Source of the DNA: Streptomyces sp. NBC_00513
GTDB lineage: Bacteria > Actinomycetota > Actinomycetes > Streptomycetales > Streptomycetaceae
Direction: 5' to 3'
Assembly (NCBI RefSeq): GCF_041431415.1
Contig: NZ_CP107845.1
Span: forward strand, 310,001 to 374,000
DNA: 64,000 nt
Part shown: positions 6,513-21,235 of the stretch, piece by piece
Position numbering within the stretch: the stretch's first letter is position 1
Layout: every line of letters starts with the position of its first letter
Position numbers and translations under genes: made by a program
The notes under the pieces: generated by a model
What the model saw: only the letters and a program-made list of their open reading frames with translations
Told to the model about the DNA's origin: nothing
Database searches by the model: none

Positions 6513-7154
6513 ATGACTGAAACAGCTGCTACGACCACCCCCCGCGAACGGTACCGGCGGCAAGTGCGTGCCGAGATCAAGGAACGGGCGCGAGAGCAGA
6601 TCGCCTCTGCCGGAACCACAGCGCTTTCACTCAACAAGATCGCGAAGATCATGGGCCTCAGCGGTGCCGGTCTCTACCGATATTTCACGAGTCGTGACGC
6701 GCTGCTCACCGAATTGGTCCGGGATGCCTACCAGAGCCTGGCGGATACTTTCCGAACCGTGGCCGACGGCGGTGAGGGCGACCTCCGCAGCCTGGCCCGC
6801 GCCTTGCGCGCGTGGGCACTCGCCGATCCACAGCGCTACTTCCTCGTCTACGGGCCGCCAGTGCCGGGCTATCACGGTCCTGCCGATGTCACATCCACGA
6901 TGTCGGACATCATGAGCTGCATCCTTGGCGCGTGTGATGCGCAGGCCCGGAAGGACCGCTCCGGGCCTGCGTGCACACCCCCCGCGAATCCCGGGGAGGG
7001 CTTGCAGCCCGGGTCTGCTCAGCAGCGGGCCATTGCCTTCTGGACGAGGCTGCACGGGGTCCTGTCCCTGGAGCTCAGCGGTCATTTCGCCGGTATGGAC
7101 ATTGATCCCGCCCTGCTCTACAAGGCCGAGCTGGACTTGCTGGCAATCGGCTGA
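6513..7154 (+). CDS. TetR/AcrR-family transcriptional regulator
   Basis: A 213-aa protein with an N-terminal TetR helix-turn-helix at about residues 20-65: IASAGTTALSLNKIAKIMG followed by LSGAGLYRYFTSRDALL, the standard recognition helix and YxYF motif. The C-terminal half is a ligand/dimer domain ending IDPALLYKAELDLLAIG, similar to the TetR C-terminal class that ends in a small helical pair. The start follows GAGGAGG. It reads toward the gvpK end of the gas vesicle operon (convergent), so it need not control that operon; its target is unknown. Confidence 0.85.
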   Translation: MTETAATTTPRERYRRQVRAEIKERAREQIASAGTTALSLNKIAKIMGLSGAGLYRYFTSRDALLTELVRDAYQSLADTFRTVADGGEGDLRSLARALRAWALADPQRYFLVYGPPVPGYHGPADVTSTMSDIMSCILGACDAQARKDRSGPACTPPANPGEGLQPGSAQQRAIAFWTRLHGVLSLELSGHFAGMDIDPALLYKAELDLLAIG

Positions 7155-7327
7155 CCACGGCGCACCCAATCGAAGAGTGATTCTGATTCCGGGACCGAAA
7201 CCGTGCCGCCAGACGTCGGCAGGGCCTGCACCGTCCCATGCAGCCGCCAGGGCCCGCCACAGGTGGGATGCGGTTGGCCCCCGGCCCACGTGCATGATCA
7301 CTCCGCCAGGCCGAAACCGGCACCGTG

Positions 7328-7720
7328 TCAATCGCGGGGAGGCAGGAGGGGTCCGAGGGGCCCGAGGTCGAGGTTGAGGTCTTCCAAGGCGTAGCCGTGC
7401 TCGGCGCACAGGTCGGAGAGGGTGTCGTGGAGGGCGAGGAGTGTAGCGCCGAGTTCCTCTTCCTGGTCGTCGCTGAGGTCGCCGGCGTCGACGCGGCGCA
7501 GGGCTTGGCGTTCGATGAGCTGGCGCACGAGCTCGACCAGGGTGAGGACGAGTTTGAGGAGGTCCTCACCGACGGTTTCGGGGTCGGTGTGCAGATGCCG
7601 GGCGGGGCGGGAGTTCTGTCCCTGGGCGGGTGGAGGTGCCTGGGTGAGGCGGAACGCCTGGGAGAGGTTGGCGCCAACATCCTGGAGAGGCTGCGGGGGC
7701 GGGGTTGGTTCATGGTTCAT
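7328..7720 (-). CDS. gvpK: Gas vesicle protein GvpK
   Basis: A 130-aa protein, the last gene of the gas vesicle operon. The centre carries the GvpK signature: VGEDLLKLVLTLVELVRQLI then ERQALRRVDAGDLSDDQ, with a helical C-terminus (LHDTLSDLCAEHGYALEDLN). GvpK is an accessory protein needed for vesicle formation rather than a wall protein. The start at 7720 overlaps the gvpS stop by 11 bases, implying coupled translation; an ATG at 7732 is possible. The N-terminal 35 residues are proline-rich and poorly conserved. Confidence 0.9.
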   Translation of the reverse strand: MNHEPTPPPQPLQDVGANLSQAFRLTQAPPPAQGQNSRPARHLHTDPETVGEDLLKLVLTLVELVRQLIERQALRRVDAGDLSDDQEEELGATLLALHDTLSDLCAEHGYALEDLNLDLGPLGPLLPPRD

Positions 7721-16300: not shown

Positions 16301-16933
16301 CTATTCGGCACGGTGTGCCTTGTGCGGGGTGACCTGCAGCCGCCCTCTGGCGGGCAAGGTCCGCCCCGTGGACTGGCGGGCGCGCTTCAGCGGCCCGTCA
16401 CAGAGCGCCTGCAGGACTGGTCCGGGCTCGCTGTCGGGAGTCAGCGTGAGATCAATACGGGCTTCGGGATGACGGGACGTGCCGTCCATCCGTGCGCGGG
16501 CCCGGTGGACGCCGGGCACATGCTGGATGTCGGCTGCCAGGGCGTCGCTGAGGGCGCGCTCACGCAGCTCCACGCCGTCAGCAGTAGGCGGGACGCCGAC
16601 GGGGATCCGGCCGGGGTGGGTGCGGCGCAGTTGTGCCAGTAGCCACCACAGGGCAAGCAGGACAACGATGGCCAGCACGGCGATGACGGTGGGCCACCAC
16701 CATCCTTGGTCCGTCCAGCGGGTCCGGTCGGAGTCGGCGAGCAGGACGGTTCGCGGATCGGTCAGGGGCCAGCCCTCGGGTGGTCTTATGCGCCAAATCC
16801 GGTACAGGTCGAAGCTACCCGTCAGGATCAGGATGCCGGTTCCCAGCAGGACGATGCCTGTCAGGGCCAGCAGGACTCGATTGACTGCGGATTTCCTTCT
16901 CATGGGATCCGGTTCCTGTCTCTCGCTCGACAT
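16301..16933 (-). CDS. amaP: AmaP-type Asp23 membrane-anchor protein
   Basis: A 210-aa protein with two membrane spans: RVLLALTGIVLLGTGILILT (about 19-38) and TVIAVLAIVVLLALWWLLAQ (about 82-101). The C-terminal cytoplasmic domain has the alkaline-shock-like pattern LSDALAADIQHVPGVHRARA and IDLTLTPDSEPGPVLQALCD. This is the layout of AmaP, which anchors Asp23 to the membrane in Gram-positives. It ends the five-gene minus-strand Asp23 operon. It lies 18 bases after the DUF6286 stop. Confidence 0.75.
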   Translation of the reverse strand: MSSERQEPDPMRRKSAVNRVLLALTGIVLLGTGILILTGSFDLYRIWRIRPPEGWPLTDPRTVLLADSDRTRWTDQGWWWPTVIAVLAIVVLLALWWLLAQLRRTHPGRIPVGVPPTADGVELRERALSDALAADIQHVPGVHRARARMDGTSRHPEARIDLTLTPDSEPGPVLQALCDGPLKRARQSTGRTLPARGRLQVTPHKAHRAE

Positions 16934-16951: not shown

Positions 16952-17602
16952 CTACTTCCGGCGTGGACGTACGCGAATGCCGAGCCAGGGAGGACGGGCG
17001 AGGGCGAGGCGGTCGAGTTCCGTCTGCAGAGCAACCAGCAGGTCGGCTTTGACGTCGGCGGGGGCACGGAACCGCGCGTCCGCGCGCACCCTGATGCGGT
17101 TTTGGAGGATCCGTACCTTGGCGGCGCTGACACCGGGGACGCGCATGGCGGCGTCCCGCAGAAGCAGTGCCGCGGCATCGCGGTCCAGCGTGGCCCGCAG
17201 GTCGGTGTCGGGAGTTTGCAGGGGCAGTTGGTTGCGCAGGCCGTGGGTGAGCGCCAAGACGATCAGCCATAGGCCGAGAACAGTGATGACGGCGGCGGCG
17301 ATCTGGATCCGGACGTCGTCCATTGGCCGGGTGGCCAATTCGTCGGCGAGCCGTGTGCGCCAGCCCGCGACCGACTGGCCGGCACGGACTCTGGCAATGT
17401 CGAACAGCAGTGTTCCTGCCACGGCCCCGATAAGCAGGGCTGTGAGCGCGGCGGGTATCCGGCGGGCGGACCACGGCCGCTTTGCTGTCGGGTGCGCTCC
17501 GGAACGAGGTTTCTCGGTCACCAGCCCGACTGTGCGGGAGGCGACCGCGTCGGGTTCGGTGGGATGCTCCGTGGTGGCCGGGGGGGCTTGGTCGCGTTTC
17601 AT
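16952..17602 (-). CDS. DUF6286 membrane protein
   Basis: A 216-aa protein with a disordered N-terminal ~50 residues and two membrane spans (ALTALLIGAVAGTLLFDIAR and IAAAVITVLGLWLIVLALTH). A cytoplasmic C-terminal domain follows (LDRDAAALLLRDAAMRVPGV, then IRVRADARFRAPADVKADLL). This resembles DUF6286 proteins, always found beside Asp23 and AmaP in actinobacteria. The C-terminal domain itself looks Asp23/AmaP-like. The start at 17602 is chosen to clear the Asp23 gene ending at 17638; a longer ORF overlaps it. Confidence 0.72.
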   Translation of the reverse strand: MKRDQAPPATTEHPTEPDAVASRTVGLVTEKPRSGAHPTAKRPWSARRIPAALTALLIGAVAGTLLFDIARVRAGQSVAGWRTRLADELATRPMDDVRIQIAAAVITVLGLWLIVLALTHGLRNQLPLQTPDTDLRATLDRDAAALLLRDAAMRVPGVSAAKVRILQNRIRVRADARFRAPADVKADLLVALQTELDRLALARPPWLGIRVRPRRK

Positions 17603-17637
17603 CCCGACTCTCCTTCCCGGTGAGCATGCGGTGCGGT

Positions 17638-18048
17638 TCACTGCACGCGCCGGTTGTCCAAGCCGTCGGTGGGAACCAGGTGCGCGATGTCGAGGGTGCA
17701 TTCAGTGACCCGCATCCCTGTCAGGTGAGCTACCCGCTCGCTGACGTATCGCTGCACGTGGCGTGAGGCATCGGCGACGTCTATCGGGTAGGGCAGGTCC
17801 ATCGTCAATCCCAGTCGCGCGGTACCGCTGTCGGCTGTGACCGACGCGTGTGGGGCCTGCAGCTTCGCCTGGGCGGCCGCAGCGGCGGTGTTCGTGTGGC
17901 CGGCGAGCGCCTCCCGTGCCGCGCGCGCCGCGATACGGGCCACCACCTTCTCCGGGATCACCGTGGCGCCGCGTTCGGCCGCCGGCTGCGACGGCGTGGA
18001 AGGGGCTGCCGCCGGTTCGGACAGGGGGTGGGCGGGTTGCGAGGTCAC
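17638..18048 (-). CDS. Asp23/Gls24-family envelope stress protein
   Basis: A 136-aa protein. After a Pro/Ala-rich leader of ~30 residues comes an Asp23-like domain: TVIPEKVVARIAARAAREAL, then RLGLTMDLPYPIDVADASRH and VQRYVSERVAHLTGMRVTEC. Asp23 proteins form membrane-proximal assemblies that help cells cope with envelope or alkaline stress. The start at 18048 overlaps the stop of the small membrane gene (ATGA), so translation is coupled. Confidence 0.78.
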   Translation of the reverse strand: MTSQPAHPLSEPAAAPSTPSQPAAERGATVIPEKVVARIAARAAREALAGHTNTAAAAAQAKLQAPHASVTADSGTARLGLTMDLPYPIDVADASRHVQRYVSERVAHLTGMRVTECTLDIAHLVPTDGLDNRRVQ

Positions 18049-18233
18049 TGCCGGTCCCGGGGATGCGTGAAGTCGGACAGTTCGAGGTCACCCTGCAGCA
18101 TGCGCCCGATCACCAGGCCCACCAGACCCAGGAACGCCACCAGCAGAAACGCCCAGAAGCCGCCGAAGAAGGCGGCGAAGCCCAAGGCCATGCCAGCCAG
18201 CAGGCCCACGGTTGCTGCGCTCATTTCACTCAC
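18045..18233 (-). CDS. Small two-span membrane protein of the Asp23 operon
   Basis: A 62-aa protein that is mostly hydrophobic: AATVGLLAGMALGFAAFFGG and FWAFLLVAFLGLVGLVIGRM form two membrane helices. A short cytoplasmic tail (LQGDLELSDFTHPRDRQ) follows. Small proteins of this type sit between the two Asp23 genes in many Streptomyces. It could be a further membrane anchor. It is coupled to the downstream Asp23 gene by a 4-base overlap. Confidence 0.72.
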   Translation of the reverse strand: MSEMSAATVGLLAGMALGFAAFFGGFWAFLLVAFLGLVGLVIGRMLQGDLELSDFTHPRDRQ

Positions 18234-18273: not shown

Positions 18274-18750
18274 TCACTGCACGCGGCCCTCGCCTTCCTC
18301 GTCGTCTTCCTCGTCAGGGAGGTGGACGTCGTCGACGGTGATGTTCACCTCGACGACCTCCAGGCCGGTCATGTGTTCCACGGCGGTGATGACGTTGTTG
18401 CGGACCTCACCGGCGATGTCCACGATGGGAACGCCGTATTCCACGACCACGTCGAGATCGACGGCCGCCTGCCGCTGACCCACCTCGACTTTCACGCCCC
18501 GGGACACGCTGGGCCGTCCCCCCGGAACCTTGTCCGTCACGGCCCCGAGCGTTCGAGCCATCCCGGAGCCGAGACTGTGGATGCCCGGCACCTCGCGTGT
18601 GGCCATCCCTGCGATCTTTTCGACCACGCTGTCGGCGATCGAGGTCCGGCCGCGCGTCTCTGGCGCCGTCCCGGCACCGGTGTGTCCCGTGAGCGCCTTG
18701 CCCGCAGGGCGGGAGTCACCGCCCGCGGTGGGGTTGATGGTGTCCGACAT
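18274..18750 (-). CDS. Asp23/Gls24-family envelope stress protein, first gene of operon
   Basis: A 158-aa protein with a full Asp23 domain: RTSIADSVVEKIAGMATREV, PGIHSLGSGMARTLG, then VKVEVGQRQAAVDLDVVVEY and GVPIVDIAGEVRNNVITAVE. It ends in a short Glu/Asp tail. The ATG at 18750 follows GGGGAGGTCCTC; longer starts up to 18822 lack this support. It leads the minus-strand operon that is divergent from the ECF sigma factor gene at 18915, leaving a ~165-base shared promoter region. Confidence 0.85.
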   Translation of the reverse strand: MSDTINPTAGGDSRPAGKALTGHTGAGTAPETRGRTSIADSVVEKIAGMATREVPGIHSLGSGMARTLGAVTDKVPGGRPSVSRGVKVEVGQRQAAVDLDVVVEYGVPIVDIAGEVRNNVITAVEHMTGLEVVEVNITVDDVHLPDEEDDEEGEGRVQ

Positions 18751-18914
18751 GAGGACCTCCCCGGGGTGTCTGGGCGGACGCCGTTGCGACGCCCTCATGT
18801 CTTGGACACATCGCACCGACATTCCTCACTCCTCACCCTGCCACCACAGCGCCTACGATCGAAGAGTGCGTACGCAGGCCGCCACCGGCGTCTTCGGCAG
18901 AAGGGAAGCGGCGG

Positions 18915-19559
18915 ATGCGCAACCGGACCAGTACATCGCCCCGGCACGGCGCGGCACGCCCACTGCGGCCGGCGCCGCAGACCGTCGCCTGCGTTGCCGC
19001 GGCCCCGGGCACCTTGAACGACGCGGACGACAGGGTGTTGACGGTTCGGGCTGCCGAAGGAGACGAAGAAGCCTTCGCGCTCCTGGTCCGCCGGCACAGC
19101 GGCCGTCTTTTGTCCCTCGCTCAGCATCTGCTCGGCAATCGGGCGGACGCCGAGGACGCGGTCCAAGACGCCTTCCTCAGCGCCTGGAGGCAGCTTCCGG
19201 GTTTCCGCCACACCGCCTCCTTCGGCACGTGGATGTACCGCATCGTTACGAACTGCTGCCTCAACACCCTGCGCCGCCGGCCTCGGCCTCTGCCCCTGGA
19301 AACCGTCCCCGAGCCCCCCGCCTTGGACGCCGACAGCTCACCACCCCGCATGGCTGAGACGAGAGCCACGGCAGCCGCTCTCACGCGAGCGCTCCTGGAA
19401 ATAGGACCCGAGCTGCGCGTGTGCTGGGTCCTCAGAGAGCTGCACGGCCTGCACTACGAAGAGATCGCCATCGTGGTGGGCACCAGCGAACAAACGGTGC
19501 GCGGCAGACTTTTCCGCGCACGACGCGCTTTGATGGAGGCGATGCGCCCATGGCGCTAG
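18915..19559 (+). CDS. ECF-type RNA polymerase sigma factor
   Basis: A 214-aa sigma-70-family protein. Region 2 (about 51-120): EEAFALLVRRHSGRLLSLAQ, the DAEDAVQDAFLSAW core and TASFGTWMYRIVTNCCLNTL. Region 4 (about 150-210): LEIGPELRVCWVLRELHGLH and YEEIAIVVGTSEQTVRGRLF. There is no region 1.1 or 3, as expected of the ECF group. The first 33 residues are a basic leader; a start nearer ADDRVLTVRAA is possible. The gene after it overlaps its last 10 bases and carries an anti-sigma zinc motif, so it is a likely partner. Confidence 0.88.
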   Translation: MRNRTSTSPRHGAARPLRPAPQTVACVAAAPGTLNDADDRVLTVRAAEGDEEAFALLVRRHSGRLLSLAQHLLGNRADAEDAVQDAFLSAWRQLPGFRHTASFGTWMYRIVTNCCLNTLRRRPRPLPLETVPEPPALDADSSPPRMAETRATAAALTRALLEIGPELRVCWVLRELHGLHYEEIAIVVGTSEQTVRGRLFRARRALMEAMRPWR

Positions 19560-20197
19560 ACGACCCGCACCCGACCTCCTCGACCAAGTCCGTCCCGCCC
19601 CCGCGCCCCGATGCCGAGCGGCTTGCCGGCTCGGAGCTGCTGCCCTGCGGACGCCTCCTCGGGCGTGCCTGGGACCAGGCTCACGATCCTGCCCGTGCCG
19701 CGGACCCGCACACCAACCACTGTCCGTACTGCCGCGAAGCCATCGAGGGGCTGACCTCCCTGGAGCGCGCCACCCGTGCCTTGCGCGGCGAGGAACAGCC
19801 CGATGGCCACAGCCTCGCCAACAAGGTGATCAACGCCGTTCGTGCCGAGGCAAGGCTGGGCGCCATGCTGCTGCTCAATGACGCGGGACACGACCTTCGG
19901 ATCGCCGAGACCGCCGCCGCGAAGATACTGCGCCGAGCGGCCGACACCGTCCCCGGTACCCACGCCGCCAGCTGTCGGCTGACCCCCGCACGCGGCGGGC
20001 ATCCACTTCACGTCGCCGCCATCACCGTGTCCGCCACGCTCGACCAACCGTTGCGAGAGCGGGCCGAAGCCGTACGCCAAGCCGTCCTCCACGCGGCTCA
20101 GCACGTCCTCGGTATCGCGGTCACCGCCGTCGACGTGGAAGTCACCGCCGTGCTGGAACGCTCCCGCCAGCCGAGGCTCGAGCGGTCCGAACGATGA
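19550..20197 (+). CDS. Asp23-like protein with ZAS anti-sigma zinc motif
   Basis: A 215-aa protein whose start overlaps the sigma factor stop. Near the front it has C33 and then H54-x3-C58-x2-C61 (HTNHCPYC), the arrangement of zinc-binding anti-sigma (ZAS) proteins. The second half (VINAVRAEARLGAMLLLNDA, then AETAAAKILRRAADTVPGTH and a strand-rich end) looks like an Asp23-type domain. No membrane helix is present. ZAS proteins hold ECF sigma factors inactive; that this one does so is inferred from motif and coupling. Confidence 0.68.
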   Translation: MALDDPHPTSSTKSVPPPRPDAERLAGSELLPCGRLLGRAWDQAHDPARAADPHTNHCPYCREAIEGLTSLERATRALRGEEQPDGHSLANKVINAVRAEARLGAMLLLNDAGHDLRIAETAAAKILRRAADTVPGTHAASCRLTPARGGHPLHVAAITVSATLDQPLRERAEAVRQAVLHAAQHVLGIAVTAVDVEVTAVLERSRQPRLERSER

Positions 20198-20556
20198 CCG
20201 CCTCGCCCTGGGAAGGCATTCACCGGGCTGCGGCAGAGGCTGCCCTCGGCGTTCCAGGCGTGGACGCACTTCAGCCCGCGCTGTCCGACCGACTCGCCCT
20301 CGCCGCCTCCCGCGCACGTCACCCCAAGACCCCATCGACCACACCGCCCCGCGAAGTGGCCGGCATCCGCTGTGAACGCACCCCGGACGGCGGCTGCCAC
20401 GTGGAAGTGCGGTGCATCCTGCACACCGACCGCCGCGTCGTGGACATCGCCCGGCAGGTACGCCATGAAGTGAAGGACGCCGTCACCGCCTGCCTGGCTC
20501 AGCACCGAACAGTCGTCCCCGTCCTGGTCACGGTCACGGTCACCCGAACCGTCTGA
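20194..20556 (+). CDS. Asp23-like small protein
   Basis: A 120-aa protein coupled to the previous gene by ATGA. The front (IHRAAAEAALGVPGVDALQP) and the alternating strands (CHVEVRCILHTDRRVVDIAR, then QVRHEVKDAVTACLAQHRTV and VPVLVTVTVTRTV) match the ends of Asp23-domain proteins. A ~25-residue Pro/Thr linker replaces the middle. It completes a sigma / ZAS-Asp23 / Asp23 unit. Whether it joins the Asp23 assembly encoded on the other strand is unknown. Confidence 0.62.
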   Translation: MTASPWEGIHRAAAEAALGVPGVDALQPALSDRLALAASRARHPKTPSTTPPREVAGIRCERTPDGGCHVEVRCILHTDRRVVDIARQVRHEVKDAVTACLAQHRTVVPVLVTVTVTRTV

Positions 20557-20644
20557 ATCCCCCGGCCATATGGCACCACGCGCCTGTCAGATGGCACCGG
20601 AATCACCCGTTCCGTTACACACGCGATCGATAGGAGACTCGGCC

Positions 20645-21235
20645 ATGACCCACACGACGAAGCACTCCGAGCGGGCACCGGATCCCGTTCGGATACTGAG
20701 CGTCTACCTCAACGACCACCTTGCCGGAGCAGGAGCCGGCGTGGCCCTGTTCCGCAGAATGTCGCAGACTCACACCGGAACGCCCGCCGGTCGACGGCTG
20801 ACAGAACTGACCGCCGAAGTCACCGAAGACCGGGAGAGCCTGCGCGAGATCATGACCGCGCTCGACGTACCGCTCATGCACCACAAGATCCTGCTGGGCA
20901 TCCTCGCGGAGAGGGCGGGGCGGCTCAAGCTCAACGGCCGCCTCGTCTCCCGTTCCCCGCTGAGCACCATCCTCGAACTGGAGGCGGCTCGAGTAGGAGT
21001 GGAGGGCAAGAAGGAGCTGTGGCGGACGCTGCGAGCGCTGTCTCGAACGAATTCCCGAATCGACGGCGAAGCCGTAGGTCGACTGCTGGCCCGAGCGGAA
21101 CGGCAGACCGACGCCCTGGAAACCATGCGGCTATCGGCCCTGGAGCTCACCTTCCACTCCAGGCCCGGCTCAGGAAGCTCGCCGACCCCGCGCGGTGGAG
21201 GCATCTCCTGGAGAAGGAGCCGGGCACACCGATGA
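20645..21235 (+). CDS. Helical protein of unknown function
   Basis: A 196-aa all-helical protein without signal or membrane spans. The pattern ILSVYLNDHLAGAGAGVALF, RRMSQTHTGTPAGRRLTELT and AEVTEDRESLREIMTALDVP suggests a four-helix bundle with conserved acidic residues, reminiscent of ferritin-like or DUF892-type folds, but metal ligands are not clear. The ATG at 20645 follows TAGGAG. It is downstream of the Asp23/sigma unit with a ~90-base gap, so it may have its own promoter. Confidence 0.6.
   Translation: MTHTTKHSERAPDPVRILSVYLNDHLAGAGAGVALFRRMSQTHTGTPAGRRLTELTAEVTEDRESLREIMTALDVPLMHHKILLGILAERAGRLKLNGRLVSRSPLSTILELEAARVGVEGKKELWRTLRALSRTNSRIDGEAVGRLLARAERQTDALETMRLSALELTFHSRPGSGSSPTPRGGGISWRRSRAHR

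Follow-up and report, generated by a model that had tools for sequence, protein, structure and literature searches.

The Sigma Operon and the Divergent Asp23 Operon

The window (the whole 64-kb stretch of Streptomyces DNA that was analyzed) contains three plus-strand genes with overlapping ends, encoding an ECF sigma factor, the protein ASG and the small protein A2, and, divergent from these, an operon for Asp23-type envelope proteins. ASG, a working name for the Asp23-linked anti-sigma gene (19550..20197, + strand), was delimited by reading of the ORF and by homologue search, and encodes 215 amino-acid residues plus the stop codon (20195–20197). Its ATG at 19550 precedes the stop codon of the sigma gene (TAG, 19557–19559), which falls inside the ASG start region (ATGGCGCTAG), and the overlap between these two genes that had been claimed in the first-pass annotation is thus present. 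A2 (20194..20556, + strand), the third gene of the sigma operon, in turn overlaps the end of ASG by an ATGA at 20194. The sigma gene (18915..19559, + strand) encodes both characteristic regions (Sigma70_r2, 9.1e-20; Sigma70_r4_2, 9.2e-11); its true start may lie later than 18915, and the conserved part begins at 19026. An ORF of 221 residues located 3′ of A2 (20570–21235, + strand) has no Pfam or NCBIfam match, and in a near relative (L004) the matches to this ORF are split over four ORFs (7100–7576), as if decaying.

The divergent operon lies on the minus strand and consists of genes for a classic Asp23 (18274..18750; PF03780, 106.7 bits), a DUF2273 small membrane protein (18045..18233; PF10031, 26.7 bits), a second Asp23-like protein (17638..18048; PF03780, 25.7 bits, below the cut-off), a DUF6286 membrane protein (16952..17701; PF19803, 91.3 bits) and an AmaP-like membrane anchor (16301..16933; NCBIfam NF033218, 56.4 bits with a cut-off of 55). 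The Asp23, DUF6286 and AmaP assignments made at first sight are borne out by these scores. For Asp23 itself, the start given in the ORF list (18822) sits within the ECF-type promoter described below, and the ATG at 18750, which has a ribosome-binding site, is more likely to be the true start. Another Asp23 operon of this genome, covered in a 3.3-kb stretch that ends inside AmaP, has no sigma gene and no such promoter in that stretch.

The Anti-Sigma Half of ASG

On profile, motif and gene-order evidence, the N-terminal half of ASG is a class I anti-sigma domain. The domain (residues 28–104; 19631..19861, + strand), which was delimited from profile–profile comparison (hhalign), AF2 modeling and weak matches to solved anti-sigma factors, has helices at residues 37–45, 53–57, 59–80, and 86–101, and it combines sequence and gene-order features of the class (ASDI), namely a profile relation over helices 1–4, the Hx3Cx2C motif and an adjacent cognate ECF sigma gene. 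When 138 zinc-type ASG homologues were compared by hhalign with 28 zf-HC2 anti-sigma domains from seven genomes (two of 30 such loci, in which an intact motif was not read, were left out), the N-terminal half aligned at 94.9% (P 4.2e-8) over 76 columns, an alignment that takes in helix 4 and matches the His and both Cys of Hx3Cx2C column for column. Control values stayed at or below 1.1% for reversed alignments and 1.7% for ten column shuffles. The zinc-less family f36 (f codes denote families and g codes genera in the homologue comparison), with 29 of its 31 sequences usable, gave by itself a weak match to the anti-sigma domains (34%, P 4e-4; reversed, 0.2–0.3%).

The four ligand codons lie at the positions named in the first-pass annotation: C33 (19646–19648), H54 (19709–19711), C58 (19721–19723), and C61 (19730–19732). 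Of 121 proteins, made up of the query plus the best 120 of 432 matches, 116 have Hx3Cx2C, the criterion for zinc-type domains given in a passage of PMC7406223, and the remaining five keep CxxC; by this conservation, the pattern in ASG is not a chance one.

Although the family profile aligns with zf-HC2 domains, ASG is not filed as zf-HC2, because the Pfam model (PF13490) gives no match to it at E values up to 10. The anti-sigma half was missed by Pfam, NCBIfam, and PADLOC when these were used by themselves. A search of PDB sequences with a whole-ASG profile gave 13 weak matches, which include the anti-sigma factors RslA (E 0.011), RsiW (0.44), and DdvA (1.4) as well as several zinc fingers, two of them ranked above RslA. 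The AF2 model was weak with a 28-row alignment (pLDDT 70.8) and better with 93 rows (mean pLDDT 85.3, pTM 0.59), and is no guide to the packing of the two halves. In the anti-sigma half, pLDDT was 92–96 at residues 31–70, 85 at residues 71–80, and 67–70 at residues 81–100. Fold searches with ASG were dominated by the C-terminal domains of CDF transporters, with no anti-sigma chain among the matches listed, and barely probed the anti-sigma half.

The Asp23-Like Half and A2

The second half of ASG (residues 106–202; 19865..20155, + strand) has an a-b-b-a-b order of elements, as read from hhalign and AF2, the latter with pLDDT of 90–98 at residues 111–200. Against the Pfam Asp23 family (PF03780) it scores 16 bits (E 0.017), and this half is called Asp23-like rather than a member of the family because the cut-off of 28 bits is not reached. 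Profile–profile comparison with the Asp23 family nevertheless gave 97.9% (P 5e-13; reversed control, 1.8%), which upholds the Asp23-like half that had been proposed. The supposed cytoplasmic anti-sigma domain with a zinc pattern, fused to an Asp23 fold, is likewise supported by the profile comparisons together with the sigma linkage. The fold-search matches listed for this half are mostly CDF-transporter C-terminal domains of the MamM type. Within it, Cys142 (19973–19975), part of an SCR motif, is kept in 152 of 170 homologues.

A2 is a small Asp23-like protein, with 22.6 bits against Asp23 (below the cut-off) and 94.9% in profile comparison with the family. In sigma-less Streptomyces relatives, the Asp23-like half of ASG is joined with A2 in one protein, whose C-terminal half matches A2 at 97.5% (P 8e-12).

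Linkage of the Anti-Sigma Domain to the Sigma Gene

Classification of 242 stretches gave 190 that carry the anti-sigma domain, corresponding to 170 distinct proteins. A sigma gene lies directly upstream in 169 of these 170, the exception (L096) being at a contig edge. No sigma gene adjoins any of the 26 clear domain-less Streptomyces homologues (at least 70 bits), 25 of which have an Asp23 gene in the stretch; in one of the 26 (L039) a weak sigma-like match is present elsewhere (E 0.0017). A further strong homologue without the domain (L178) nevertheless keeps its sigma gene. With the two fusions described below left out, a Fisher table of domain against sigma reads 169/1/1/26 (p 3.6e-30), a value that overstates independence, as the rows are related by descent, and that excludes the domain-less matches of family f4 below 70 bits, ten distinct ones of which have a sigma gene upstream and six do not. 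In a search at genus level, a match of some kind was found in 378 of 392 genomes, with the full-length form of ASG as a separate high-scoring class, of which 30 automatic loci and 60 regions were sampled as a subset. One Streptomyces stretch (L036, 934–1839) has an anti-sigma frame that lacks the Asp23-like part, reads R at C33 and looks decayed beside an intact sigma gene.

The homologue searches used the whole of ASG, and partners without an Asp23-like half are therefore detectable only by starting from sigma. So that loci would not be selected through their Asp23 half, an alignment (A4) built from Asp23-linked sigma genes was run against 296 genomes of the class, with 11 candidates scored per genome and matches ranked by sigma sequence alone. 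All 54 matches listed above 150 bits were examined (the next one scores 143). An Asp23-family gene lies directly downstream in 46 of the 54, with the anti-sigma domain in 29 of these, and a strong Asp23 gene is present in the stretch for 44; in the other eight, no Asp23-family gene was detected downstream. Three sigma genes of the group (L365, L368, and L351) have no detected Asp23-family gene nearby and may mark the edge of the group.

Paired coevolution analysis of sigma and ASG (169 pairs; effective number, 113) gave couplings stronger than those of six permuted pairings, although these are spread across the two domains and cannot be distinguished from the effect of co-inheritance. In genus g70 (two genomes, G171 and G865), a single in-frame ORF, lying where the Asp23 operon ends and A2 follows, encodes sigma and then the helix-4/Asp23-like part, the zinc part being gone. 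This fusion provides natural evidence that the Asp23-like half would act on or with sigma, though the promoter is unrecognizable there.

Linkage to the Asp23 Operon and an ECF-Type Promoter

A strong Asp23 gene was found near ASG for 147 of the 170 homologues (136 in the first stretch and another 11 among 30 refetched with wider flanks), and none was found in the stretches covered for the other 23; the tie between the ASG unit and the Asp23 operon, first drawn from the window by itself, thus extends to most relatives. The gene order differs between families, and the linkage of sigma, ASG, and Asp23 is kept in most loci. Among the 136 loci, 117 have Asp23 divergent next to sigma (f1, f17, f36), six in f1 have it on the opposite side, and the remaining 13 have it in the same direction, in ten cases as sigma–ASG–A2–Asp23 in genus g31 of f4. 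Genera g189 and g70 have sigma at the end, after the Asp23 operon.

Before the Asp23 operon of the window lies an ECF-type promoter (18801..18831, − strand), with the −35 element TGAGGAAT at 18828–18821 and the −10 element TGTC at 18808–18805. Its form, TGA[CG]GAAT...[CT]GTC, is one that we take to resemble ECF promoters in shape. It scores 27.0 bits and is the sole matrix match above 15 bits within the 64-kb window, and the 8.62-Mb genome contains a single copy of the strict pattern, the one at this locus. Across relatives, the dyad GTGA[CG]-N15-17-[CT]GTC pointing toward Asp23 was found in 51 of 77 non-redundant regions between Asp23 and sigma (120 before reduction), whereas 100 dinucleotide shuffles averaged 2.8 and never exceeded 7, a comparison that flatters the dyad because the pattern was chosen after viewing the same regions. 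It was found in none of 15 sigma-less Asp23 operons (23 before reduction), and is rare toward sigma (7/77; shuffle mean, 3.8). The looser TGA[CG]-N16-18-[CT]GTC gave 53 of 77 (mean, 7.0) and 3 of 15 in the sigma-less controls (mean, 0.7).

Matrices trained for each family on the other families only, with the threshold at 5% false positives, recovered the promoter toward Asp23 in 31 of 43 loci in f1, 9 of 17 in f17, and 16 of 17 in f36, with 1, 2, and 3 of the 15 sigma-less controls passing in the respective runs. Toward sigma, the corresponding numbers were 18/43, 3/17, and 0/17, and because of the 18 f1 matches some Streptomyces may have a second site in that direction. Two genera outside the training sets also have the promoter: in g31 it precedes sigma and heads the joint operon in all ten distinct loci (eight of them exceeding their shuffles by a wide margin and two only slightly), and in genus g37 of f19 it lies before Asp23 in six of six. 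In f36 loci with Asp23 kilobases away from sigma, it lies before Asp23 in five of five. Sigma-first stretches with an Asp23 gene have the promoter in 31 of 44 cases, with none found in 13. The f42 score is borderline (14.5, with shuffles up to 8.0). The promoter was not found before Asp23 in the fusion genus g70 (0.9 and 0.5 bits) or at one g73 locus (7.7), is weak or absent at six Streptomyces loci with the Asp23 operon about 3 kb off (at most 11.1), and is absent, as expected, at two Asp23 loci without a detected sigma gene. Because a conserved ECF-type promoter precedes it, the Asp23 operon is the likely target, and the sigma factor probably drives it.

Four Streptomyces loci with the Asp23 operon about 3 kb from sigma and lacking the promoter (L293, L300, L301, and L303) have further ECF-like sigma genes close by. 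In three related Streptomyces (L011, L013, and L036), the region separating the divergent Asp23 and sigma genes contains a CRP-like TGTGA-N6-TCACA palindrome, at which a second regulator may act.

A Proposed Model for Sigma Control by ASG

We propose that ASG is a soluble anti-sigma factor whose class I domain, here of the zinc type, would hold the ECF sigma factor whose gene directly precedes that of ASG. Once freed, sigma would transcribe the divergent Asp23–DUF2273–Asp23b–DUF6286–AmaP operon from the TGA[CG]GAAT-N-[CT]GTC promoter, and the Asp23-like half would most likely read the state of the Asp23 scaffold via contact between like domains. An intact or sufficient scaffold would favor the sigma-holding form of ASG, and a disturbed or insufficient one would free sigma and refill the scaffold, probably as negative feedback. 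We regard this reading as a whole as reasonably probable, and its parts differ in strength. Binding of sigma by the ASG domain is highly probable, and use of the Asp23-operon promoter by sigma is likely, at a level slightly reduced because three lineages lack the promoter. Contact between ASG and the Asp23 scaffold has about an even chance, and the negative sign of the feedback, taken by itself, is a tentative choice.

One competitor to scaffold sensing would be a redox ZAS of the RsrA kind, in which loss of zinc or formation of a disulfide frees sigma and the Asp23-like half only dimerizes or stabilizes ASG. All four ligands are retained in 138 of the 170 distinct domain-bearing homologues, including 137 of the 139 outside f36, and RsrA-type domains are present in the set to which the ASG domain aligns, both of which fit such a sensor. 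However, at least one ligand is missing in 30 of the 31 distinct f36 proteins (two of these lack the His only), and five f19 proteins are short ASG homologues that have lost the zinc domain altogether, with sigma, promoter and Asp23 linkage kept in these lineages; in addition, the likely target is an envelope operon and not a thiol regulon. A redox sensor of this kind is therefore an improbable account of ASG. Because ligands or domain were lost with the rest of the system kept, zinc probably has a structural role or serves as an additional input, contrary to an arrangement in which it is essential. The first-pass annotation had named zinc-less homologues with conserved gene order as evidence against its own proposal, and f36 provides them. 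As about 44% of class I anti-sigma domains lack the zinc motif and 56% are of the zinc type (72% among soluble ones), according to a passage of PMC7406223, these homologues argue against obligate zinc sensing but do not count against an anti-sigma role.

The opposite sign of control is about as unlikely: newly made Asp23 or A2 would titrate ASG off sigma, and the resulting positive loop would act as a switch. The same anatomy, with a shared fold and the target operon, fits this scheme, but sigma and the Asp23-like part that are fused in g70 are inseparable by titration, though a change of shape is still conceivable. That ASG is a structural or accessory Asp23 subunit sharing the sigma operon by chance is very improbable, since the relatives that would suggest it, which are fused to A2 and have an Asp23 operon, but no sigma gene, beside them, lack the anti-sigma domain, whereas the domain-bearing proteins almost invariably follow a sigma gene and their domain aligns with anti-sigma domains.

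Relation to Known Systems and Significance

The first-pass annotation knew of no coupling between Asp23 proteins and an anti-sigma factor; the prediction of such an anti-sigma factor is, however, already in print, since passages of PMC8999054 describe the groups ECF286 and ECF292 as likewise adjoining soluble Asp23-family proteins predicted as their anti-sigma factors. The representatives given there are from Streptomyces rimosus and Mycolicibacterium cosmeticum (PMC8999054, citing Casas-Pastor 2021), and from the mycobacterial one we infer that f19 corresponds to ECF292. No S. rimosus protein is named among the best 120 sigma matches. The same source calls experimental data on both groups lacking, and neither a zinc domain nor a target promoter or a loop is described in its passages on them (PMC8999054). 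In the open-paper literature, ECF286 and ECF292 turned up in a single sentence and one pair of table rows, both in PMC8999054, and no paper was found that deals with a zinc domain or a target promoter in these Asp23-linked proteins.

With the cytoplasmic ZAS proteins RsrA, ChrR, and RshA, ASG shares solubility, the class I domain with a helix-1 Cys and Hx3Cx2C, and the position of its gene directly after that of sigma. In RsrA, the corresponding residues serve as ligands and the gene is located directly after its sigma gene. ASG differs from these proteins in that its relatives have lost the ligands in one family and that its likely target is the Asp23 operon. The second half of ASG is Asp23-like, whereas that of ChrR is a cupin according to a passage of PMC8999054.

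Like the Asp23–AmaP envelope system of Staphylococcus aureus, the Asp23, AmaP, and DUF2273 genes form an operon here. In S. aureus, asp23 is a member of the SigB regulon, whereas a dedicated ECF sigma gene and an Asp23-bearing putative anti-sigma gene are linked to the operon of the window. Asp23 and AmaP proteins are widespread in Gram-positive bacteria and, to our knowledge, it is unclear how cells sense the state of the Asp23/AmaP layer. An unlinked Asp23 gene of S. venezuelae goes down after ethanol, as reported in a passage of PMC9769785.

The locus brings together a sigma factor, its likely inhibitor, its likely target operon and the promoter, and does so in several actinobacterial families. 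The natural variants (zinc-less, domain-less, fused, and sigma-less) serve as controls, and the coupling is directly testable. The arrangement of ASG, sigma, and the Asp23 operon suggests a self-adjusting loop. Somewhat more speculatively, ASG may join the very scaffold that its sigma builds, forming an envelope homeostat in which the end product would be measured by co-assembly, with the Asp23-like domain rather than zinc as the conserved sensor.
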